Source of the DNA: a virus
Length of the DNA stretch: 23,140 nt
Strand: one strand, 5' to 3'
IMG/VR virus record: IMGVR_UViG_3300032285_002113
Coordinates: 1 to 23,140 of that record
The notes beneath the pieces were generated by a model that searched no databases, was not told the DNA's origin, and worked only from the letters and a program-made list of their open reading frames with translations. How positions within the stretch are numbered: position 1 is the stretch's first letter; each line of letters begins with the position of its first letter. The position numbers and the translations under genes were made by a program. Positions 5,289 through 21,043 of the stretch are shown here, piece after piece.

Positions 5289-6647
5289 TTAAAGAAGTCC
5301 TTTTTGCATACCTGTTTGGTGAGGTGAGTTTTTTGTTCCACCTTGTACAGAAACCGAAGAACCTGAAAAATTTCCTTCAGGAAGTGTTTTTCCATCATTA
5401 AATCTAGCAACTGTAATAGAGACATTAGACAAAATAGGAACCATTCTGTTATTAAACATAACGTGGTTTACAGAAAGGTCTACTACCCTAACTCTGTAGC
5501 GCATTGCTTGTCCTAAGTGCAACTCAACCATTGTTGGTCTAATCCAACCATGGTCTGCTGTAGGTCCGTTTAATCCAGAAGTAAATTGAGCATTTGGACC
5601 ATTGATAGTTTTAAACAAATATTCCAAATCATACATAGTTCCTTTTCGGTAAATTTCTTTTCTATCTTCTTCTGACACGGGGTTTGGATAAGGGTAATTT
5701 TGGTAAGTTTCCACAGGGTAAAATCCATCGCCAGGTGTAAAGACATTTCCCTTTATAGAACCATCTTCATTTAAGTACTTTGTATCTGCTGTTCTGTTTA
5801 GAAGTAAATCAAAACGTATTGTTGCGCTCATAAGTTGAGCAGAAATAACAGAAAAAGCATCTTGTCCAGCTGCTTCAAAGGTCGGGTCCATAGCAGTTAA
5901 CTGTCCCCAAGCCATACTTACGGTCTGTGGATTGTACAGAAATTTAAATCCGTATAATTGAGGGTCAAAATCACCTTGTTCACTAGATTGTGATTCTGTA
6001 ATTGAGGTTATGTATTTTCTATCCATTTGAATAGTACCTCTACCGCCAGTTACTCCATTCCAAGCTTTTGCAGCATCGTCATATACTCCAGCATCAACTA
6101 GATTTCCATCTAATACATCATTTTGAATGTTGGTTCCAAAATAAGCGTGTTTTACCATTGGTGCGTTGTATTTCCAACCACCTGTTAGGTCTACCTTTCC
6201 ACCACTAGAGTTTGCGGTTGCAACAGACGGTAATGTGTTTTTTTTATTTGCAGAAGTACCTGGGATTGGTTGGTTAAGTTGCGCTTTAATTTTTTTAATT
6301 TTAGCGTTTAAGTCTTCTATTTTTGCAGTGTTAGCATTTATGGTGTTGTTAACTAGTTTTATGGGTGCGTATAACTCGTCTAATATAGCTTGTTCAGAAA
6401 GACTAATACCACCAGGAGCAAAAATCCTGTATTGACTATTATATGCTGAAGTTAAAGCGGCTAATGTTTTTTCTTGAGCTTTTGAATCTGCTTTAAGTTG
6501 TTCTTGCAATGCAATTAGAGAGTCTAACTGGTTGTTTAAATCAGCAATTTTACTTTTTGCGTCTTTCTCTAATCGCGTCAATATACGAGCATTTTTATCT
6601 TTTGCTCTTTGCTTTTCTATTTTTGCTACTTCTGATTGTGCGCTCAT
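5289..6647 (-). CDS. Tail tube initiator/baseplate adaptor with N-terminal coiled coil
   Basis: 452 aa. Residues 1-135 are strongly charged and heptad-like (KDAKSKIADLNNQLDSLIAL, NTAKIEDLNAKIKKIKAQL), so a coiled coil is likely. The remainder (about 165-440) contains YGFKFLYNPQTVSMAWG, recalling the 'F.FNP..i' signature of tube-like adaptor proteins in contractile injection systems, where it is usually fused to LysM. Here the LysM part is a separate downstream gene. The end is Gly/Ser-rich. ATG overlaps the TAA of the tape measure gene (TAATG). Inferred role: joins the tube to the hub. The coiled coil is not part of the usual family and may contact the tape measure. Confidence 0.6.
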   Translation of the reverse strand: MSAQSEVAKIEKQRAKDKNARILTRLEKDAKSKIADLNNQLDSLIALQEQLKADSKAQEKTLAALTSAYNSQYRIFAPGGISLSEQAILDELYAPIKLVNNTINANTAKIEDLNAKIKKIKAQLNQPIPGTSANKKNTLPSVATANSSGGKVDLTGGWKYNAPMVKHAYFGTNIQNDVLDGNLVDAGVYDDAAKAWNGVTGGRGTIQMDRKYITSITESQSSEQGDFDPQLYGFKFLYNPQTVSMAWGQLTAMDPTFEAAGQDAFSVISAQLMSATIRFDLLLNRTADTKYLNEDGSIKGNVFTPGDGFYPVETYQNYPYPNPVSEEDRKEIYRKGTMYDLEYLFKTINGPNAQFTSGLNGPTADHGWIRPTMVELHLGQAMRYRVRVVDLSVNHVMFNNRMVPILSNVSITVARFNDGKTLPEGNFSGSSVSVQGGTKNSPHQTGMQKGLL

Positions 6648-9001
6648 TATGCTTTCCCTATCATTGATATTTCAGCAGAGTTTTTTATTAACGCTTTTAC
6701 TCTATTAGCTACACGAAGCAATTCAGCATCACTGCTGTTTTGTAGAGTTATGGGAATATTAAAAGTATTGTTTACTACAGGGGCTGCTGTTGCTGTAGAA
6801 AGACCAGCTCCTCCGTAACCAGAACTTCCACCACCAATATTAAGTTTCTTTGAAGAGTTTACCCAAGCATCACTCCATTTAGTTCCGCTTTTAGATATGT
6901 CGTATGCAATTTTTGCATTTATTAATGGGTCATACAAACTTTCTGGACCCTTATAGCCTATTGAGCCGTACTCTTTTAAATATTTTGCATTTCGTCTAGT
7001 CCCTAAATCACCAATCATATTAATTTGGAATAGACCCATTGAATAGTCACCCGTAGATGCATTTGGGTTTAAAGCACCTGCACGACCACCAGACTCCGCT
7101 CTTGCAATGTTGTAAGCATTTGTTAATTTAGAACCAGTAAATCCAGCTTGTTTAAGGATAGATACTAAATCCTTATCTGCTGTTGCTGTAAGAGCTGCAG
7201 ATGCGGCTGGTGTTGAACTACTAAGTGTTGATGAGGAGCCAGTTGTTAGCGCACCCCATCCAGTAGGAAGAGGAGTTGCATTTCCTGTTGATAAGTAAGA
7301 CGATGAGCCTACAGAGGCTGGGTCTACAGCATTATTTTTACCATTGCGTACTTCGTAGTGCAGATGTGGACCATTGGCATTTCCAGATTTACCAGATTTA
7401 CCAATTACTTGACCAGATATAACTCGGTCTCCAACCTTTACTGCTTTGCTACTTAAGTGTGCAAATAAGGTTTGTACGCCAGACGGAGTATCGACCAAAA
7501 TAGATGTGCCGTAGTCTGAGTTTAAATCTACTTGTGAAACAACCCCAGACATAGTTGCTTTTACAGGTGTGCCAACTTCCATTTGGTAGTCAACACCAGT
7601 GTGTTTACCTCCACTTGATGCCCAAGTATTACTATCTTGTGCGCCGTATGGGGCAGTAACAGCTCCAGAAATTTTAGCCATTGGCCCACCGCCACCACGG
7701 TTACCAAATTTTGCTCCATATCCAGAAGTTCCACCACCACTGAACAATAAAGCAGAACCAGCAGCGACTCCTACTGGGTTAGCAGTAGCAATTAACCCAG
7801 CTCCAACAACTTTCTTTGCAATGTTTAAGACCCCAGACATGGCAGACTTAGCGCCTTTACCTACGTTGGTTCCCCCAACTCCGCCTAAGTAACCCTTTAG
7901 TTGCATAAGTGGTTCAATCACGTTGGAGAGTGCTCTGTTAAATGCTTCAACAGTATCTGCAGCATTTTCAAAACCTTTTATCATTGCGTTTTCGCCTTTA
8001 GTCATAAGGCTTTCTTGCGAAGCTGCCATACGACCAGCAGAAGTTAATGCAGTATTGGCATTACCCGCTCCTGGAGCAGCTTTTGAAAGGTCTGGATTTC
8101 TCCCAGAAGCAATATCAACCATTGATTGAAAGAGAATCTTTTGTTGTCCTTCGTCAAACCCCATTGTTTTAAGGTTTGCACCTAATGCGCCTCGTTGAAA
8201 AGACTGTCTTACTTGTTCAGCAGTAGCTTTTCCTCCACCCATTAGCTTCATTAACTCTTGTGCAATTTGCCCTGGTGTTTTTTCTTTTCCAGTACGTGGG
8301 TTGTATGTACTAATGCCGTATTGGTACATATTTGCGCCCATAGTGCCTGTTTGGAATCCAGCGATTGACTGAGCTGCTTGAGCGTTGTTCATTCCTAAAT
8401 ACTTGTAAGCACCACCCACTTGCGCTGCTGCTTGTAGATAATTAAAACTACCAGCTGTGTAACCATAAGCAGAGAGAGTAGATGCTACTTGAGCACTAGA
8501 ACCCACACTAGAGATTCCACCACCCATAGCCCTCATGGTGGCTCGCTCTAAACTACCACGGTTTATTCCAGGAGTAGTTAACCCTGCTTGGTAATAACCA
8601 AGAGACCTATTTAAAGTTGCTCCAACATCTGGGGTTGCAGCGTAGCCTCCAGCTGCAAGGGACAACACTCCTTGAGCAATTCCAAAAGAGGCTTGACCCT
8701 TTCCACTCATTGAAAAAGCAGTGAACTTACCTAGAGAACCAGACATACGATTGCCTGTGTTTTCTCCAGTTGCGCTAGGAAGGCCGTTTGCCCCATCTGC
8801 GCCTGTACCAGGACGTGTAGCAGCCTTAGTTAAATTGCGAGTTCCACCTGCTTGGTTAAGAACCCCAGAAAACTTACCTAAAGCTGTTACAGAAACGCCA
8901 TTAACTTTTTCAATAGCCGCATGAAGAGCATTAACTTTTTTGGTTAAGTCATCTACGCCTTTAGACAAGGACTGAACATTAGACACCATCTTGTTAGCCA
9001 T
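6647..9001 (-). CDS. Tail tape measure protein with M23 endopeptidase and SLT lytic transglycosylase domains
   Basis: 784 aa. The N-terminal helical part (residues 8-45, LSKGVDDLTKKVNALHAAIE) and the long Gly/Ala-rich middle with hydrophobic patches (AAGSALLFSGGG) fit tape measure proteins, which set tail length and enter the host envelope. Residues about 448-562 form a peptidase M23 domain with all ligands visible: H467xxxD471, H515 and H546-L-H548, with a GxxVxxG-type beta hairpin (VKVGDRVISGQVIGKSG). Residues about 608-715 are a lysozyme-like SLT domain with ARAESGG (E636 as presumed catalytic Glu) and MGLFQINM. It starts 2 nt after the chaperone-extension stop, with AAAGGA upstream. Two cell-wall hydrolases in one tape measure imply active peptidoglycan penetration. 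Confidence 0.9.
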   Translation of the reverse strand: MANKMVSNVQSLSKGVDDLTKKVNALHAAIEKVNGVSVTALGKFSGVLNQAGGTRNLTKAATRPGTGADGANGLPSATGENTGNRMSGSLGKFTAFSMSGKGQASFGIAQGVLSLAAGGYAATPDVGATLNRSLGYYQAGLTTPGINRGSLERATMRAMGGGISSVGSSAQVASTLSAYGYTAGSFNYLQAAAQVGGAYKYLGMNNAQAAQSIAGFQTGTMGANMYQYGISTYNPRTGKEKTPGQIAQELMKLMGGGKATAEQVRQSFQRGALGANLKTMGFDEGQQKILFQSMVDIASGRNPDLSKAAPGAGNANTALTSAGRMAASQESLMTKGENAMIKGFENAADTVEAFNRALSNVIEPLMQLKGYLGGVGGTNVGKGAKSAMSGVLNIAKKVVGAGLIATANPVGVAAGSALLFSGGGTSGYGAKFGNRGGGGPMAKISGAVTAPYGAQDSNTWASSGGKHTGVDYQMEVGTPVKATMSGVVSQVDLNSDYGTSILVDTPSGVQTLFAHLSSKAVKVGDRVISGQVIGKSGKSGNANGPHLHYEVRNGKNNAVDPASVGSSSYLSTGNATPLPTGWGALTTGSSSTLSSSTPAASAALTATADKDLVSILKQAGFTGSKLTNAYNIARAESGGRAGALNPNASTGDYSMGLFQINMIGDLGTRRNAKYLKEYGSIGYKGPESLYDPLINAKIAYDISKSGTKWSDAWVNSSKKLNIGGGSSGYGGAGLSTATAAPVVNNTFNIPITLQNSSDAELLRVANRVKALIKNSAEISMIGKA

Positions 9002-9003
9002 AC

Positions 9004-9144
9004 TCAGTCCTTTCTAATCTTGTTGGCTATTTCTAGCCAGTTCTTTCTATCTCTATAAGACATTTCTTTTATTTCTGTTAGAGTCCAACCCCTAAAGGTT
9101 GTAACTAACATTGACCATTCAGCAACTAAGTTGCCGTATGGCAT
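9004..9144 (-). CDS. Tail assembly chaperone C-terminal extension (probable frameshift product)
   Basis: 46 aa if started at ATG 9144: MPYGNLVAEWSMLVTTFRGW, then EIKEMSYRDRKNWLEIA. Such a W..L...GW...EI..MS.R.R.NW.E.A peptide directly before the tape measure resembles the second part of tail assembly chaperones expressed by frameshifting (lambda G/GT type). No Shine-Dalgarno site stands before the ATG, and the frame stays open upstream through the end of the preceding gene. A +1 shift at TTT-TAA (9149-9154) would join it to that gene as a 317-aa fusion. Independent translation by reinitiation is the alternative. Confidence 0.6.
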   Translation of the reverse strand: MPYGNLVAEWSMLVTTFRGWTLTEIKEMSYRDRKNWLEIANKIRKD

Positions 9145-9148
9145 AAAA

Positions 9149-9958
9149 TTAAAATTGAAATAAGGTTCCGAAATTAACGGAAACACTTACCTCACTTTCA
9201 CAGTCAGGACAGGTGACAGTTAATGTGTCAAACTGTGGCCCAGCAATTCTCTTATTAATTTCTTCAACAAGTTTACGACGGTCAACAAGGCCTAGATTTT
9301 GAATCTGAAGCTTGCTTAACACTGGCGAGTTGTTGATTTGTGCAACAGTATTTTCCAACATAATTGTGCTTAATTCTGCTCCTGTTTTATCAGGATTTAG
9401 CATCATTTCTTTTTGCGCAATCCCATTTGGAAGTTTCACTGTGTAGGTATTAGTCTTTCCTTTTACGGTAAAGACTCTATCGTTAACTGGGTCTGTTAAA
9501 ACTTTAACTTTGATGTCTTTGTCTAACTCAACAGACACTATTTTATCTTCTTCACACTTATAGCAAAAAGCAGCAATATCAGAAACATTACCAAAGGTTG
9601 CTTTAAAAATGCCTAGAATCAGCATATCCCTGTCACCAGAGAGCATTTGGTCTAGCATCTTTTCAGTTGCTTTTTCGTTGCCGATACGTACTGTTCCTCT
9701 TTGCAGAATAGTCAGCATTGCTTTGCCAGGGTTAGTAGCACGAGCAATTGCTTCTTCGTCATTGCCGTTTAGTTCTCTAACTTCTGCTTCGGTAATGACC
9801 TCCCCTGCGTCTGTAATATAGCCGCAAGGAAGGTTCACTACTGTGTCCGAAGGAGGAACTATTTTTACTGGTTGTTCGACTGGCTTTTCAGCCAGAGCTT
9901 GTTCAATCAAGTTGTTTGCCATTGCGGGATTAACCGCTGCATTAATTGTATTCGTCAT
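9149..9958 (-). CDS. Tail assembly chaperone / T4 gp26-like baseplate protein
   Basis: 269 aa. The stretch SGDRDMLILGIFKATFGN followed by two zinc-binding-type pairs, C132xxC135 (FCYKCEED) and C250xxC253 (TCPDCESE), is typical of the T4 gp26-related family found between tube and tape measure genes in many myophages. The long helical part (about 60-115) and position suggest a tape-measure chaperone. The protein ends GTLFQF and its stop is TAA preceded by TTT, a candidate slippage site leading to the 46-aa extension. Start ATG 9958 has AAAGGAC upstream. Family assignment is from memory; whether it acts as chaperone or baseplate part is inferred. Confidence 0.7.
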   Translation of the reverse strand: MTNTINAAVNPAMANNLIEQALAEKPVEQPVKIVPPSDTVVNLPCGYITDAGEVITEAEVRELNGNDEEAIARATNPGKAMLTILQRGTVRIGNEKATEKMLDQMLSGDRDMLILGIFKATFGNVSDIAAFCYKCEEDKIVSVELDKDIKVKVLTDPVNDRVFTVKGKTNTYTVKLPNGIAQKEMMLNPDKTGAELSTIMLENTVAQINNSPVLSKLQIQNLGLVDRRKLVEEINKRIAGPQFDTLTVTCPDCESEVSVSVNFGTLFQF

Positions 9959-9967
9959 TTTAGTCCT

Positions 9968-10570
9968 TTAGTTAAATGATGGTGCTGAAGTTTTTAGGTC
10001 TGCTGCCCATTTAACATCGAAACCTTCGTGTACAAGAGTTACTTGTTCAACAAAGAGTGCGTTGTCACCTGCATTTAGGTCTGAGTATGCAACTGATGTA
10101 GGCCATGCGTTATAAATCTTAAAACGCATTGCTTCATGGTCTGTTGTTGCTGCAGTCTGAGTTCCTTCTCCTTGACCAGGAATTGGGTGTGATAACACCA
10201 CAACTTCTAAGTCGCAACGGAAGTTTTTGTCAACCCCACGTGTTGTAGAGCCTGATGCAACTGTTGCAAATAGGTTCTTCATCCAATCCCAGTTTGCCGT
10301 GGTGTTTAGAATAACTCCACGTTGTAGGGTAATTGGTGTGAAAGATGTTTGACCAGGAATCTGGTGAACAGTGGTGTTGTAGCCACCTTCACGGTATGGG
10401 ATAGAGTCAGTAGCTACTGACAAGCCCGATACAGATGTAAATCCAAGAGTTACATCTTTCAACTTTGCAAGAGTTGTGTTAGATGCATCCTGTGGTTGGA
10501 ACGTAACTAAGAATCTAAAGTTACGTAATGGGTCGGTCAATAATGTTGACCGATTGTTAATTACTGCCAT
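9968..10570 (-). CDS. Tail tube protein (gp19-like)
   Basis: 200 aa, the building block of the inner tube through which DNA passes. Hallmarks: PLRNFRFLVTF at the N-terminus; GFTSVSGLSVATDSIPYREG, the conserved 'vsGl...e...yrEGg' block; then TSFTPITLQRGV and WDWMKNLF; and near the end YNAWPTSVAYSDLNAG with EQVTLVHEGF. All match the phage T4 gp19/conserved phage tail family, and length is usual. ATG 10570 follows a strong site (AAGGAG). It lies 18 nt after the sheath gene, the standard order. Confidence 0.95.
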   Translation of the reverse strand: MAVINNRSTLLTDPLRNFRFLVTFQPQDASNTTLAKLKDVTLGFTSVSGLSVATDSIPYREGGYNTTVHQIPGQTSFTPITLQRGVILNTTANWDWMKNLFATVASGSTTRGVDKNFRCDLEVVVLSHPIPGQGEGTQTAATTDHEAMRFKIYNAWPTSVAYSDLNAGDNALFVEQVTLVHEGFDVKWAADLKTSAPSFN

Positions 10571-10588: not shown

Positions 10589-12091
10589 TTAGTTCAGCGT
10601 CTTTTGGCTGAGGTCGATGACGATGAACTCTGCTGGGTATTGAAGGGCTACACCAACTTGGATGTGCACTTCGCCATTAGCGATTTGTTGAGCACTGTTA
10701 TTTGTGCTATCGCATAGGATAAAGTATGACTGCGCTGGAGTTGTTCCGCGAAGTCCGCCCTGGTTACGGTATTCAGTTAAGAATACGTTGATTGTGCTAC
10801 GAAGTTGTCCCCATAGACGTTCATCGTTATTTTCAAAAAGAGCAAACTCTGTAAGGTTCTTTAGGCTCTTCTTAATGTGGATTAGAGAACGGCGCATGTT
10901 TACATACTTGTTTGCGGTTCCATCTTGTTTCAATGTGCGAGCACCCATAACTGAAAGACCAGCGCCAGGAATTTGACGAATTGGGTTAACAGGTGATGTG
11001 CTTGCGTTCATGCTATCGAGTTCAGAAGAAGTAAACGCACGTTCTGAAGCAACAATGCCTTGAATTGCACTTCCGATACCAGCTGGTGATTTAAACACAC
11101 CTCGGCTTGCATCAGTAGCTAAATAAAGACCTGCAACAGAACCAGCTGGTCCAATTAAACGTAGAGCACCAGCTCCACGACCAAGTGGGTCAGAGATGTA
11201 AACGTGTGGGTAATAGACTGCAGCGTTAGAGGAGTCGTTTAGAGAACCAGCAAAAGAAATTGCTTCTGAAACTATTTTACCTGCTGCGGTTTCAATAACC
11301 ACAAATCCATCATTTGATTCTGACCATGATGTTGCTTCGTTGTAAACAAGGTCAGCGTCTGCTGATAGGCTGTTTAAAGATGGTAGGAACAAAACTAATG
11401 GACGGTTAATTACTGTAAGTTCGTCAAAAACCTTAGTGTCAGTTCCCTTGTAGTTTGTGTAATCGTTAGCAATAACTGCGCTTCCATTAGAACCGCTAAT
11501 TAAAGGGTAAGTAGCAGCTACTGGAGTTCCAGATGCACTATCAGACACTGTAATGTAAGAAGAAACAGTATTTACTACAGTTTCAGCAAAATCACTAGAA
11601 GTACTATCGTCAAAAACAACATTTTCATAACGCTCTAAAAGAACGTCATCAGCTATATCTCCTAGAACACCTGACTCTTTGTACAAAGTTAAAGTGTAAG
11701 TAGACGCTACTGAACCTGCAGAAACAACAACACGAAGATTGTTTCCATCAGCTCCTGCGTTTTTGGCTGTAATAGTAGCTACTACTGCATCTCCAGCTGT
11801 TACTACGTCTACAGAAGCTGCCATAGCATCTGAATGAAGAACACGTTTTACGTATAGTTCACGACCACCGTTGTTGAAGAATGCTCCAACTTCAAAAGTT
11901 GATGGGTAAGAGGCGTTATAACCTCCAAAATATTTGGTAAATTCATACCAAGACGATACAAGTGTTACTGCTTCTGGGCCTTGTGCGAATGTTCCGACAA
12001 CTGCACCAGCAGCATTTGCTGTACTTCCTCCAGCGATTGGCGCTGGTAGTAGGCGTTCACTGATGTAAACACCTGGGCGGCTATATGCCAT
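10589..12091 (-). CDS. Contractile tail sheath protein
   Basis: 500 aa. The N-terminus (MAYSRPGVYISERLLPAPI, then AGAVVGTFAQGPEAVTLVSS, FTKYFGG, FFNNGGRELYVKRVL) is the classic sheath signature. The C-terminal domain includes SVMGARTL, YVNMRRSLIHIKKSL, FALFENND, LRSTINVFLTEYRNQGGL and a last strand EFIVIDLSQK, which in sheaths donates an arm to the neighbouring subunit. The middle (about 90-230) is a Ser/Thr/Val-rich beta insertion on the outer face. AGGAG lies before ATG 12091. It polymerises around the tube and contracts on adsorption. Confidence 0.96.
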   Translation of the reverse strand: MAYSRPGVYISERLLPAPIAGGSTANAAGAVVGTFAQGPEAVTLVSSWYEFTKYFGGYNASYPSTFEVGAFFNNGGRELYVKRVLHSDAMAASVDVVTAGDAVVATITAKNAGADGNNLRVVVSAGSVASTYTLTLYKESGVLGDIADDVLLERYENVVFDDSTSSDFAETVVNTVSSYITVSDSASGTPVAATYPLISGSNGSAVIANDYTNYKGTDTKVFDELTVINRPLVLFLPSLNSLSADADLVYNEATSWSESNDGFVVIETAAGKIVSEAISFAGSLNDSSNAAVYYPHVYISDPLGRGAGALRLIGPAGSVAGLYLATDASRGVFKSPAGIGSAIQGIVASERAFTSSELDSMNASTSPVNPIRQIPGAGLSVMGARTLKQDGTANKYVNMRRSLIHIKKSLKNLTEFALFENNDERLWGQLRSTINVFLTEYRNQGGLRGTTPAQSYFILCDSTNNSAQQIANGEVHIQVGVALQYPAEFIVIDLSQKTLN

Positions 12092-15479: not shown

Positions 15480-15511
15480 TAAGGTTTCCTAAATCTCTTA
15501 GTCAGAGTCTA

Positions 15512-15540
15512 AGTATCCAAGAGCGGTCAAAAGCTGTCAG
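15512..15540 (-). promoter_or_regulatory. Putative sigma70-type promoter
   Basis: In the 94-nt gap between two genes, the minus strand shows CTGACA (5 of 6 to the -35 consensus), a 17-nt spacer and GATACT (4 of 6 to the -10 consensus). It would start a transcript about 25-30 nt before the 177-aa gene. The rest of the gap holds only short imperfect hairpins (CTTAG/CTAAG) and no gene. Confidence 0.45.
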
Positions 15541-16769: not shown

Positions 16770-17630
16770 TTAGTTGGTAGTAGATTGAAAACTATCAATC
16801 GTTGTACTTTGGTTTTGGGTTGATGGTGCTACGAGTATACCGTGTAGTTTTGATGTTGTAGCACCTGTTGCTGTGTAAGTTAAGTCCGAACCAGTCTGGC
16901 TAGCAAAGTTATTATCGCTATAAGCCCTTCCAGTAATCCCCAAACCGTTAGTTATAACTCTTATGCTTTTTGCTACTGCAGATAAGGTAACAGATGTTAA
17001 TTCACTCACTGTTCCCGCTACAGACCTATAAAGTTTTAAATAGTAGTTATTAGTTGTAGAAGTACCAGCACAAGTCGAACAACTATACCCTGTACAAGTT
17101 TGGCAAGTTTGAGTACTACAAGTATCGCAAGTTTGGGTGTAGTAATAGTAAGAGCAAGAATCTGTGTAATAATAGTAGTAGGTGTTGTTAATAGCTAAAT
17201 AACCTAAATATGGACCAGAAGTTGTGCAACCAGCTGCAAATGGACCATTTGTTACACAGTTACAAGAGGAAAAGCTAGTAACGCAGTTACAACTATAGCT
17301 GTATGGAGTGCAGCTACAGTTATAGTAATATGTACTGTAGGTATCTGTTTGTTTGCTTGCTACACCAAACCAATTGTTTGAATCTTGTACCCATAAAGAA
17401 ATTCCTGCACCAGAATTTGCTGTGTCATTTACTATTTGAGAAGTAACATTTTCTTTAGACATTGTTACAACTGAGATGGGGTAGTCGGTAGTAGATGCTG
17501 TAGCTGTACCAGAAGCAGCAGTCCAACCAGAACGTACTGAACTCCAACCAGAAATAAACCCAGAAGTAAATGTATCAAAAAAAGTAGAAAACCCTTTTTG
17601 AACAGATGCAATAATTCCTAAAATTCTCAT
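16770..17630 (-). CDS. LamG-like adhesion protein with Cys/Tyr-rich insert
   Basis: 286 aa from ATG 17630, which overlaps the previous TAA (TAATG); a longer reading to 17699 lacks support. Flanking parts look like one concanavalin/LamG-type beta sandwich: SGWSSVRSGWTAAS, ISLWVQDSNNWFGVASK before, and YYLKLYRSVAGTVSELTSV, AKSIRVITNGLGITGRAYSD, GILVAPSTQNQSTTIDSF after. Between them (residues about 98-189) is a low-complexity insert with 14 Cys and long Tyr runs: CSCTPYSYSCNCVT, YYYYYTDSCSYYYY, CDTCSTQTCQTC. Position among fibre genes makes a surface-exposed virion protein likely. Confidence 0.7.
   Translation of the reverse strand: MRILGIIASVQKGFSTFFDTFTSGFISGWSSVRSGWTAASGTATASTTDYPISVVTMSKENVTSQIVNDTANSGAGISLWVQDSNNWFGVASKQTDTYSTYYYNCSCTPYSYSCNCVTSFSSCNCVTNGPFAAGCTTSGPYLGYLAINNTYYYYYTDSCSYYYYTQTCDTCSTQTCQTCTGYSCSTCAGTSTTNNYYLKLYRSVAGTVSELTSVTLSAVAKSIRVITNGLGITGRAYSDNNFASQTGSDLTYTATGATTSKLHGILVAPSTQNQSTTIDSFQSTTN
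17064..17339 (-). repeat. Low-complexity Cys/Tyr-rich coding insert
   Basis: Tandem-like CxC and CxxC units (SCNC twice, TCDTC, TCQTC, SCSTC) alternating with Tyr runs inside an otherwise ordinary beta-sandwich protein. DNA shows matching short repeats (gtaatagta, caagtttg-type words) that may arise by slippage. Confidence 0.75.
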
Positions 17631-17968
17631 TAGGAAGTGATGTCTCCTATAAGAATCCAAGAGTCCGTTCCGCGTTTTACCAAAGTAGCGGAAGACCATT
17701 GTGCTCTTAATTTTAATCCTGGAGTTGCATTAACTGTAACGCCAGATGCGCCAGCAACAGTTACCTGTCCTGCAAGTGTTTGAATAATATTTATCTGACT
17801 TCCTATAGGCATTGGAGCAGCAGCATTGGTTGGAACCGTTAGCGTTATAGCACTTGCGTTAGCTAACTCCACCATTTTGTCTCTGTCCGTTGCTACAACA
17901 GTATAGGCCGTACCTGTTTGGTAGTTAAACCCCAGTAAGGTTGAAGACGGGAAAAATGCTTGTGACAT
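17630..17968 (-). CDS. Phage surface/fibre protein with beta-rich domain
   Basis: 112 aa from ATG 17968, chosen because it follows the previous TAA after one base; an in-frame earlier start would overlap by 60 nt. Core: YTVVATDRDKMVELANASAI, TLTVPTNAAAPMPIGSQINI, IQTLAGQVTVAGASGVTVNA, LRAQWSSATLVKRGTDSWIL. This is a very common phage fibre/tailspike C-terminal module ('tv..tD....v.....a.tvtvP...f..Gt.i.i.q...G.vt'). Probably forms beta-structured trimers on the virion surface. Confidence 0.75.
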   Translation of the reverse strand: MSQAFFPSSTLLGFNYQTGTAYTVVATDRDKMVELANASAITLTVPTNAAAPMPIGSQINIIQTLAGQVTVAGASGVTVNATPGLKLRAQWSSATLVKRGTDSWILIGDITS

Positions 17969-17969
17969 A

Positions 17970-18761
17970 TTAGACGATTTCCACTCCGCTAATGTGCATG
18001 GTTGTGTATTGAGATGAGGCAAGTCCATGGATTACTTTGGTAGTTGCCACAGGTTGCTTAATGTCAAAATCAGTATTGCTTACAGGTCCAAGAGGAGCAT
18101 TTGATAGCAAAGAAATACCATCTAGAATAACTCCAAAAGTTGAAGAGTTAGCAGTTGGGTTTGCCACTGCTACGTTTGTAGCCACAGCGGTTGTTGAAGA
18201 TGGAGCTGTATATAGCGGTGGAACTTTTCCAAATGCACCTTGAGTAACGGTTGTTGTTGCTGCTGTTTGGGTTGTTACTAAGTAACAAAAAGTGTTTGCG
18301 CTAGGAACAGCGATTACTTGGGCTGACAAGGTGTCGTAGATAGAATCACCAATTGTTACAGCTACAATGTCATTGACAGCTAATCCGTGGGATGCAGAGG
18401 TAAGCGTAGCAACGTAGTTTTGAATTACTTTATTTGTAACTGATGCGCCAGAAAAGGCGGTAGGAAATACTGAAATTGTAGCAATACCGACAGGAGATAC
18501 TGCAGCTGTAGGAATGTTTGCTGTTGTCTTTACAAAAGTAATAGAAGTACCTGATGCGGAAGCTATAGCGTATGTGCCGTCAAGAGTTGAGTCAACACCA
18601 GCCAAAGTTACAAGAGTTCCAGTTTGTGTAATACCGTGGGATGAACCCGTAGTGATAGTAGCAAGGTTAGATGTTAAAACCTTATTAGTTACGGTGAAAC
18701 GGGTAGGTGCAGTACCCAGCAGAGGATAGCCTCTGTATAGCACCTTGGAAGTTACAGCCAT
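17970..18761 (-). CDS. Tail/fibre structural protein with duplicated domain
   Basis: 263 aa. Two related beta units: copy 1 about residues 24-80 (VTNKVLTSNLATITTGSSHG, then VDSTLDGTYAIAS) and copy 2 about 108-166 (VTNKVIQNYVATLTSASHGL, then IYDTLSAQVIAV). 'SHGl.v.D.V.v......ngt..v..v.s...F.y' is a frequent repeat in phage structural proteins. The C-terminal part (about 185-263) is Thr/Val-rich and ends YTTMHISGVEIV. The gene starts after a 60-nt gap carrying a putative promoter and inverted repeat; AAAGG precedes ATG 18761. Confidence 0.7.
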   Translation of the reverse strand: MAVTSKVLYRGYPLLGTAPTRFTVTNKVLTSNLATITTGSSHGITQTGTLVTLAGVDSTLDGTYAIASASGTSITFVKTTANIPTAAVSPVGIATISVFPTAFSGASVTNKVIQNYVATLTSASHGLAVNDIVAVTIGDSIYDTLSAQVIAVPSANTFCYLVTTQTAATTTVTQGAFGKVPPLYTAPSSTTAVATNVAVANPTANSSTFGVILDGISLLSNAPLGPVSNTDFDIKQPVATTKVIHGLASSQYTTMHISGVEIV

Positions 18762-18821: not shown

Positions 18822-19493
18822 TTAACGCACCCAAAGCATTCCGACATCTGCCGTAGGGCGTAGATTGGCTTTTGTCCAACCACCATCTATCCAAGCATCG
18901 CTATTGTCTTGATGCCAAGCTAATAGCTTGTTTGTGTTGTCCTCGGATAACCCAAACCATTCAGTAGGTTCGTCTAAGTGGTTTTCAATGTACTGAGGAG
19001 CCACATCTCTATACCCCAATGAGTACAGGTAATTTAATTGTTTTTCGTGTTGGGATAGCGTTTCAAGGGTCCACTCAAAAGCTAACTTTCCGTAATACTT
19101 TGTCATACCTCGTAGCACCTGCCACTCAGCTCCTTCTACATCTATCTTAATTAGGTCAGGTTCTCCATAGGTATCTGCTAACCAATCGATAGTACAAGTT
19201 ACTGCTTGTACTGTTCTAAACGGTTTACCGTTGTATGGCATAGACGGGTCTGTTAACCAAGTCTTTTCTAAAGAAGAAAGCCCATCTTCTTCCGCTTCGT
19301 AAAATTCAATGCGCTCATTATTTGTTTCAGAAACGGCAAAACGTAAAGGGATAACATTAGGGTTATAGATAAAGTTAGAGACAAGTTGACCATAGACTTT
19401 AGGAGCAGCTTCTAAAGCAACAACCTTGTAACCCTTCTTTAGCCCTGCTAGTACAGCATCCCCTTTGTTAGCTCCGATATCAAACAGAAGCAT
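18822..19493 (-). CDS. FkbM family SAM-dependent methyltransferase
   Basis: 223 aa from ATG 19493 (an in-frame TTG at 19505 adds four residues). Motif I, LLFDIGANKGDAV, binds S-adenosylmethionine; LEAAP is the acidic motif II region; DLIKIDVEGAEWQVLRGM is the FkbM hallmark. FkbM enzymes O-methylate sugars or polyketides and are often found in polysaccharide loci. The C-terminal region (about 175-223: WFGLSEDNTNKLLAWHQDNS, then NLRPTADVGMLWVR) goes beyond the core. It overlaps the TPR gene and follows the beta-propeller gene, so action on a glycan is likely; the substrate is unknown. Confidence 0.9.
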   Translation of the reverse strand: MLLFDIGANKGDAVLAGLKKGYKVVALEAAPKVYGQLVSNFIYNPNVIPLRFAVSETNNERIEFYEAEEDGLSSLEKTWLTDPSMPYNGKPFRTVQAVTCTIDWLADTYGEPDLIKIDVEGAEWQVLRGMTKYYGKLAFEWTLETLSQHEKQLNYLYSLGYRDVAPQYIENHLDEPTEWFGLSEDNTNKLLAWHQDNSDAWIDGGWTKANLRPTADVGMLWVR

Positions 19494-20055
19494 CTTTGTC
19501 TTCAATCATCTTTATGTTGCTTTTGATTACCTGTTCATACTGAGTAGTAACTTTTCTTTCGTTCAAAAGAATACTAAAAAGACGTTTGCTTTCTTCTTTA
19601 CGACCAATCCACCAAGCGCTTACAGCTTGTTCAAACTCTAGACAGTAGCTGCCTGGGTATCCAACGTCTGTTGGCAATGGGACATGTACATCTAAGTGGA
19701 ACAAACCAACCTTTGCCCAGGTATAGCACTCTTGCCAATTACCTTGTCGTTCGTAATACTGAGACAGAAGAAAGTAAGCTTCTGGTCTATTTGGTATGAC
19801 GTCAATTGCTTGTAGTAAGCAGTTAGTGACCGTATGTGTTCTGTCTTTTTGGTCCTCAAAACAATGCGCCATTTTTAACAAGGACGCGTAGACGATTAGT
19901 GGCTGTTGGTTAACTCCGTACTCAGCAGCACGCAAATAGAAAGAAACAGCAGATGCAGTTTGGTTTATGCGCTCGTACTCAACGGCGCAATCAAAGTTAT
20001 ATTGGGGATTAAACGGGTCCTCGGATAGCCGTATTACTAACTCTTCAATTTTCAT
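19480..20055 (-). CDS. TPR-repeat protein
   Basis: 191 aa, all helical. TPR-like units: NPQYNFDCAVEYERINQTAS (about 17-36), the AVSFYLRAAEYG helix, and RPEAYFLLSQYYERQGNWQE (about 93-112) with CYTWAKVGL. Such repeats are often the C-terminal half of family 2 glycosyltransferases in phages and giant viruses, but no glycosyltransferase domain is attached here. It overlaps the propeller gene by 11 nt and the methyltransferase by 14 nt, so the three are co-translated. Probably a scaffold or a remnant of a larger enzyme. Confidence 0.75.
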   Translation of the reverse strand: MKIEELVIRLSEDPFNPQYNFDCAVEYERINQTASAVSFYLRAAEYGVNQQPLIVYASLLKMAHCFEDQKDRTHTVTNCLLQAIDVIPNRPEAYFLLSQYYERQGNWQECYTWAKVGLFHLDVHVPLPTDVGYPGSYCLEFEQAVSAWWIGRKEESKRLFSILLNERKVTTQYEQVIKSNIKMIEDKDASV

Positions 20056-21043
20056 ATGCCAAAGCCTCCATTATTAAGTCTTCTACAACAAGCTTAGGTG
20101 TTCGTAATACAAATGCGGCATTATCTTGGAATCCAAATGAGATAAGTAAGTCTCCGTTGTGAACCGCAGCACCAGCACAAAACTCAATGCGAGCATCAAT
20201 AAATGAAAACTCTTTGCTTAATCCAACTAAGTTTAACTGGTCGTCCCACACGCATAAACGGTGGCGATAGATTCCATCTTTTTGGTTTAAATAGTTTTTA
20301 AACAGAACTACATCATGTGAAATAGAGATGTACACATTTCCCCAACGCACAAGCTGAGAACCACCACGTTGGTCTTTAGGTGGAACAATCCCTTGTCTTA
20401 CAGACACTTGGTCACATTTAGGCAAAACAGGGTCAGCCTTAACAACCTCAACAGGGGAGGTCCACTTAATAAAGTGGTACGGCCTATCTAAAACAGGAAC
20501 CCAATTTTTTTCACAGTATGAGATGTTAGGGTCTGGTGCAGGAATACGAGTTCTTTTTGTTTCAGTAACTTTCCAAGATTTCTTTTCAATTGCGATACGA
20601 GAGTACTCCATACGACCCTCACCGTTTGTAGTGGTATCACGGCGTACACCAATTAGGTAATACTTACCTTCCCACTGAACAAGACGAGCATCTTCTAGTC
20701 CAACAAACTCCCATATAGGTGTGTGCAGGTTTAACATCTCTACGCTTGCATGGTCAGTTACCTCTAACTCAGAGTTAAGACGCATCACATAGTTTTCTGT
20801 CACAAGGCGTTGGTCTTTTTCTGGGTGAAGATAAGACAGTGGTCCCCATCTAGACGGAAACTGTTGAGTGTTTTCTGAATGATAAAGAGTGTAATTAACA
20901 TGGCGCAAATTAACTAAAATATCGCCATCATCATCCACAAAGATGGATGGGTTCATTAAGCCTGTACCAGAGGTAAGGCCCTTTTCAATAACAAGAGGAG
21001 CTAATTTGCCCCCATGTTGTACCGATTTTTGTACCAGATTCAT
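20045..21043 (-). CDS. GH130-like five-bladed beta-propeller (putative glycan-active protein)
   Basis: 332 aa. Regularly spaced blade motifs: MNPSIFVDDDGDILVNLR (30-47), WEFVGLEDARLVQWEGKYYL (111-130), YCEKNWVPVL (176-185), RGGSQLVRWGNVYISISHDV (226-245), EFCAGAAVHNGDLLISFGFQ (287-306). 'GLEDARL' corresponds to the ED(P/A)R motif of GH130 glycoside phosphorylases, and KNW.P and the late D..LISFG.QD also fit that superfamily. Whether it hydrolyses or phosphorolyses, or only binds, a glycan cannot be told. Neighbouring TPR and FkbM genes favour a glycan-modifying role. Confidence 0.65.
   Translation of the reverse strand: MNLVQKSVQHGGKLAPLVIEKGLTSGTGLMNPSIFVDDDGDILVNLRHVNYTLYHSENTQQFPSRWGPLSYLHPEKDQRLVTENYVMRLNSELEVTDHASVEMLNLHTPIWEFVGLEDARLVQWEGKYYLIGVRRDTTTNGEGRMEYSRIAIEKKSWKVTETKRTRIPAPDPNISYCEKNWVPVLDRPYHFIKWTSPVEVVKADPVLPKCDQVSVRQGIVPPKDQRGGSQLVRWGNVYISISHDVVLFKNYLNQKDGIYRHRLCVWDDQLNLVGLSKEFSFIDARIEFCAGAAVHNGDLLISFGFQDNAAFVLRTPKLVVEDLIMEALAYEN

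Follow-up and report, generated by a model that had tools for sequence, protein, structure and literature searches.

Phage λ makes a short and a long tail assembly chaperone, G and GT, from one gene by slipping −1 on a heptamer, and the extension of the long form lies upstream of the tape measure gene. Here we describe the same gene order in a 23.1-kb viral fragment (IMG/VR record IMGVR_UViG_3300032285_002113, positions 1 to 23,140; hereafter the window), where a T4 gp26-like chaperone gene on the minus strand very probably reaches its extension by slipping +1 on the tetranucleotide UUU_C. Within bacterial genes, programmed +1 shifts that occur at a distance from any stop codon are to our knowledge rarely documented. 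With the site proposed here, prfB (RF2) shares a +1 slip on a pyrimidine-rich codon. The paper describing the PRFect predictor states that forward shifts lack a known general motif (PMC10885494). For influenza PA-X, peptide sequencing fixed both the slip site, UCC_UUU_CGU, and its direction; the mechanism favoured there is movement of the P-site tRNA from UUU to UUC, and Firth et al. 2012 predicted that UUU_C +1 sites form a wider class, in which the choice of A- and E-site codons is restricted (PMC3498833). Among tail chaperones, a +1 shift is very likely in HSTV-2 (PMC5009743), and TTT-CGC has been proposed as the chaperone shift signal of the HF1-group haloviruses (PMC7230728).

The family to which the window gene belongs shares the P-site tetranucleotide UUU_C, usually followed by CGN, with influenza A PA-X and the UUU_CGN sites of amalgaviruses, and its proposed slip, like theirs, lies away from the stop codon and has no universal structural stimulator. 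Unlike them, it is a bacterial-ribosome system residing in tail chaperone genes, its E-site codon is mostly leucine and its A site tolerates CAR, CTN and CCT. The haloarchaeal myoviruses HF1/HF2 and HSTV-2 share the arrangement, with a proposed or very likely +1 shift from chaperone into extension upstream of the tape measure gene; in the HSTV-2 record the annotated +1 chaperone junction (∼15488–15515) holds TCC TTT CGC, which is the PA-X site except for its last base. The HSTV-2 chaperone, however, comes from archaeal hosts and belongs to a different protein family (phrog_12163/14268), and hhalign detected no similarity between it and the gp26-like family. Frameshifted tail chaperones, and a UUU_C motif in those of haloviruses, are already known or proposed (PMC7230728). 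To these the present analysis newly adds a UUU_C +1 site in bacterial phages, across a large gp26-like family; the site is conserved without exception at the ends compared, and its position is corrected relative to an initial annotation of the window. In open-access papers, the literature on a shift of this kind consisted of the halovirus proposal only, with nothing on BRock-type phages.

The tail genes of the window run in the order sheath, tube, a gene for a 269-amino-acid protein (9149–9958, minus strand), the +1-frame extension and tape measure. The 269-residue product matches PF12322 (T4_baseplate; E=2.3e-8, 34.4 bits, above the curated cut-off of 24.5) and phrog_150, 'baseplate hub' (E=3.7e-7). 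Its AlphaFold2 model has a predicted local distance difference test score (pLDDT) of 88. The two top PDB matches of the model are both to the HK97 tail assembly chaperone 2ob9, with weak E values of 0.22–0.41, probabilities of 0.92–0.93 and target-normalised template modelling scores, TM(target), of 0.49–0.54, and T4-like gp26 proteins are among its best viral structure matches. The gene also lies between the tail tube and tape measure genes, as do λ G/GT-type chaperones. On gene order and fold taken together, the protein is most likely a tail assembly chaperone, in the short, G-like form.

The open reading frame (ORF) ends GGA ACC TTA TTT CAA TTT TAA, followed by TTTTATG, and the +1 frame reads AAT TTT ATG CCA and onwards until a TGA at 9006–9004, just ahead of the tape measure ATG at 9001. 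These facts of the sequence, namely the ORF end, its TTT-TAA and the +1 reading AAT TTT ATG, had been given in the initial annotation and were all correct on rechecking; its proposal of a +1 shift from the tail chaperone into a C-terminal extension, placed as in λ G/GT, is supported by the comparisons below. Counted from ATG 9144, the extension comprises 46 amino acids with three tryptophans (EWS, GWT and NWL). Read from the shift site proposed here, the T-like extension spans 50 codons (9007–9156, minus strand) and, with TTTC translated as phenylalanine, would give a fused product of 317 amino acids.

We drew loci of relatives from viral contigs, genome contigs and isolate phages and, after removal of duplicates, compared 83 distinct gene ends, which span environmental contigs, Streptomyces phages, actinobacterial contigs and a 484-kb phage. 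A non-redundant set of 40 representatives, less than 70% identical to one another, was used alongside; the relatives share ancestry and are not independent, and all counts are to be read accordingly. The +1-frame extension was open in all 83, which is far beyond chance, and a W-x-L...R-E/D-R-x-x-W motif was kept in the extensions of relatives. Substitutions fell 2168, 1365 and 4550 times at codon positions 1, 2 and 3 of the +1 frame, a bias which demonstrates that the extension evolves as coding sequence.

The initial annotation had assigned the shift signal to 9142–9160. The region was right but the exact site was not, the conserved element being the TTTC at 9160–9157 rather than the TTTTAA at 9154–9149. 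The proposed +1 site, UUU_C (9157–9160, minus strand), consists of TTT codon 267 at 9160–9158 and the C at 9157, and the E-, P- and A-site codons read TTA_TTT_CAA (9155–9163, minus strand), for which the family consensus is YTN_TTT_CGN. An in-frame TTTC was present at the same phenylalanine in 83/83 distinct sites, F267 forming one invariant column in protein alignments. The 0-frame stop (TAA at 9149–9151, minus strand, in the window) followed this TTT after two codons in 44 sites, three in 37, five in one and six in one; since its position varies relative to the conserved TTT, the stop is not the anchor. The codon after TTT may be CGN, CAG, CAA, CTN or CCT, encoding Arg, Gln, Leu or Pro, and its first base is always C. 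As the C is kept while the encoded amino acid varies, the conserved unit is one of nucleotides, not of amino acids. Among the 40 representatives, the A-site codon was CGN in 30, CTN in 6, CAR in 3 and CCT in 1, and the E site held a leucine codon in 37.

Codon choice at the site was equally strict. The phenylalanine codon was always TTT and never TTC, even though TTT makes up 0–22% of phenylalanine codons in loci of 59–69% G+C. The product of the locus TTT frequencies, treating the 40 representatives as independent, is 10^-24.5, which is too extreme given their kinship and is indicative only. TTTC was the sole tetranucleotide between the two stops competent for re-pairing in 29/40 representatives, and in the window chaperone gene it is the only in-frame TTTC. 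Dual coding was rejected as the reason for the invariance of TTT because in many loci the overlapping +1 codon is untranslated before the shift: the +1-frame stop upstream of the site lies as near as 3 codons (median 5), closing that frame 3–5 codons upstream. Outside the shift site, in-frame TTTC was rarer than expected in the 40 representative loci (88 versus 210, ∼2.4-fold) and YTN_TTT_CGN occurred once elsewhere, against 5.6 expected. Such scarcity is compatible with a tetranucleotide that is avoided for being prone to shifting.

From the site, its frame and conservation, the coding constraint, the gene order and the fold resemblance, we infer that programmed +1 frameshifting on UUU_C very probably yields λ-G/GT-like short and long chaperones. 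UUU and UUC share a single tRNA-Phe, which pairs exactly with UUC and by wobble with UUU. Some ribosomes on the mRNA of the gp26-like chaperone would slip +1 at codon 267, UUU_C (9160–9157), the P-site tRNA-Phe (anticodon 3'-AAG-5') moving off the wobble-paired UUU onto UUC, with which it pairs better, before the A site is filled. After the slip, AAU UUU AAU UUU AUG and onwards would be read for 50 codons. The majority of ribosomes would stop two codons on, giving the 269-residue short chaperone, and a minority would produce the 317-residue long form. By analogy with λ gpG/gpGT, the short form may coat the tape measure protein and the extension may recruit tail tube subunits.

In the close relatives of the window, a hairpin downstream of the site may act as a stimulator of the slip. 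A stem-loop at 9114–9142 (minus strand) begins 14 nucleotides 3' of TTTC and is followed in the same folded region by a second hairpin (9076–9110, minus strand), which is less well conserved (63–69% of cells paired). Folding of 9068–9150 gave a z-score of −4.88, below all 128 scanned positions of this strand (minimum −3.3), and z-scores in the close clade were mostly −1.6 to −5. In close relatives, 79% of cells of helix 1 were paired and both-sided changes occurred in 6/12 pairs, clearly above slid controls. This support consists of z-scores and pair counts on a structure derived from the window; RNAalifold on the close clade returned no consensus for the double hairpin, which is therefore best described as a candidate stimulator at the level of the clade.

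Several observations weigh against the proposed mechanism. No stimulator was found family-wide, the mean z-score of downstream folding being −0.40 compared with −0.47 at control positions; the median across the family was −0.26 and the hairpin is not general. The window's own A-site codon is CAA, where the commoner one is CGN, and its long ORFs contain 19 further in-frame TTTC, from which it follows that UUU_C alone cannot suffice. Moreover, the expected numbers of TTTC and YTN_TTT_CGN given above rest on pooled codon frequencies.

Other explanations of the locus must be set against these data. The initial annotation placed the shift on the terminal UUU_UAA, by a stop-stimulated mechanism of the prfB type. 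In the window the tetranucleotide UUU_U does allow perfect re-pairing, and the first hairpin begins 6 nucleotides past the stop, a plausible distance for a stimulator of a shift there. When TTTTAA was compared in relatives, however, a terminal TTT-TAA was present in just 4/40 representatives. In the relatives closest to the window, the gene end reads TTT CGA TTC TAA/TAG, TTT CGA CTC TAG or TTT CAG TTC TAA, and since TTC or CTC before the stop cannot re-pair +1, TTT-TAA was discarded as the conserved site. The stop, 2, 3, 5 or 6 codons past the conserved TTT, shifts its position relative to the extension and TTTC does not, and no Shine-Dalgarno sequence is conserved upstream of the shift site (a G-rich 4-mer lies within 15 nucleotides in 7/40 representatives). 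A shift on the terminal codon is thus improbable, although the UUU-UAA site may contribute weakly in the window's genome alone. With the shift best placed two codons before the stop, the junction GTLFQF-NFMPYG of the initial annotation (fusion peptide GTLFQFNFMPYG) gives way to the predicted GTLF-NFNFMPYG, which has N in place of Q after GTLF and is 14.016 Da lighter. It is less probable again that a small gene of its own encodes the extension, with its start either at ATG 9144, by re-initiation 4 nucleotides past the stop, or at GTG 9186. The position of this ATG, a GAGG ahead of the GTG and the Streptomyces phage records, which annotate a later ORF on its own, speak for such a gene, but no Shine-Dalgarno sequence precedes ATG 9144 (TTTCAATTTTAATTTT upstream), the GAGG is just 3 nucleotides from GTG 9186 and so too close, and neither start codon is conserved among relatives. 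The extension frame contains no ATG before the conserved motif in 24/40 representatives and no ATG, GTG or TTG in 15/40; in those 15 only a change of frame can express the extension, and an independent start was rejected for the family. A separate gene would also leave the invariance of TTTC unexplained. The earlier view that the extension has no start site of its own is upheld.

A −2 shift would reach the same frame as the +1 slip, with one extra residue, and the tail chaperone of phage Mu is a precedent cited by Firth et al. (PMC3498833). In nearly all relatives, though, −2 re-pairing would set tRNA-Phe on U(A/G)U with a mismatch at the middle base, for which reason +1 is preferred, and the invariant C after TTT is relevant only to +1 re-pairing. 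We consider a −2 shift extremely unlikely. As the window, like most of its relatives, is a metagenomic contig, one might suspect an indel from sequencing or assembly, or a fusion gene in decay, but the arrangement recurs in isolate genomes and at 83 distinct sites, and the extension is under coding constraint, which makes artefact or decay scarcely credible.

The same chaperone with TTT_C, then CTC or CGC, sits in genome contigs of Actinomadura, Saccharothrix, Nonomuraea and Streptomyces, and prophage or tail-like relatives therefore probably exist. More distant gp26-like chaperones were reached via the 484-kb uncultured phage. TTT_C with a +1 extension was found in Flavobacterium phage immuto, Streptococcus phage GXN1 and Bacillus phage SP-15 (a search with the SP-15 query retrieved SP-15 only), and TTT TTT (UUU_U) with a +1 extension in Microcystis phage Mel-JY01 and Listeria phage LIS04. 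In a second group, which takes in jumbo phages and a cyanophage (Atu_ph07, PA5oct, RAS14, LR756511, RaK2, CBB and cyanophage S-SM1), a C-terminal extension also follows the gp26-like gene but lies in the −1 frame, with T_TTT_TTC or T_TTT_TTT at the junction. Where the records of LR756511, Atu_ph07, PA5oct, RAS14, RaK2 and CBB carry annotation, they do not include the extension in the upstream gene. In Synechococcus phage S-SM1 (1357–2255), gp26 ends TCT TTT TTC GCA TAG, and the protein called gp51 (60 amino acids) is the extension alone, in the −1 frame, and matches phrog_634.

T4 itself (NC_000866), whose gp26/gp51 family (PF12322, phrog_150) is that of the window gene, has two separate genes, unlike the single gene with a proposed frameshift in the window. 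Its gp51 (249 amino acids) is a full PF12322 protein (3.9e-52) with the phrog_634 extension fused in frame, and gp26 is a PF12322 protein without extension. On these profile matches, T4 gp26 and gp51 would correspond to the short and long chaperones, each encoded by a gene of its own. Alignments by hhalign of the very diverse family against single T4 sequences were weak, the Pfam and PHROG profiles being decisive. A broader proposal, to which we give slightly less than an even chance, is that UUU_C would be a general and ancient +1 signal of bacterial ribosomes across the large gp26-like family of contractile phages, convergent with influenza PA-X and the haloviruses, and that the family has switched among +1 shifts (UUU_C), −1 shifts (U_UUU_UUY) and two genes (T4 gp26 short, gp51 long).

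The remaining tail genes of the window, all on the minus strand, encode a sheath protein (10589–12091; PF17482, 1.2e-7; phrog_23, 4e-50), a T4 gp19-like tube protein (9968–10570; PF06841, 1.1e-27) and a tape measure protein of 784 amino acids with M23 and lysozyme-like domains (6647–9001; PF01551, 5.6e-28; PF18896, 2e-15; phrog_167, 1.7e-28). Near the tail genes on the same strand lie an FkbM-type methyltransferase gene (18822–19505; PF05050, 1.6e-14) and a gene with a weak GH130-like match, below cut-off (20045–21043), both of them possibly sugar-related accessory genes. Three consecutive minus-strand ORFs (16770–17699, 17630–18028 and 17970–18761) overlap by ∼60–70 bases in different frames and have no Pfam match; another recoding spot or misplaced starts are possible there.

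Of the Streptomyces phage records that we checked, none annotates the proposed frameshift, and BRock, LuckySocke, GiJojo, pSt2308 and others would thus each lack the long chaperone in their annotation. The BRock site reads CTG TTT CGC GAA CTC TAA, where a slip on UUU_C would give the junction GILF-ANSNYK. The family fits the wider UUU_C class foreseen by Firth et al. 2012, and the dozens of natural examples that it offers, all with the same UUU_C core in variable surroundings, provide material from which to learn how UUU_C shifting works on bacterial ribosomes. The gp26/gp51 parallel, moreover, makes the identity of the T4 tape measure chaperones testable, and switching among +1, −1 and two-gene arrangements would, if true, identify them.
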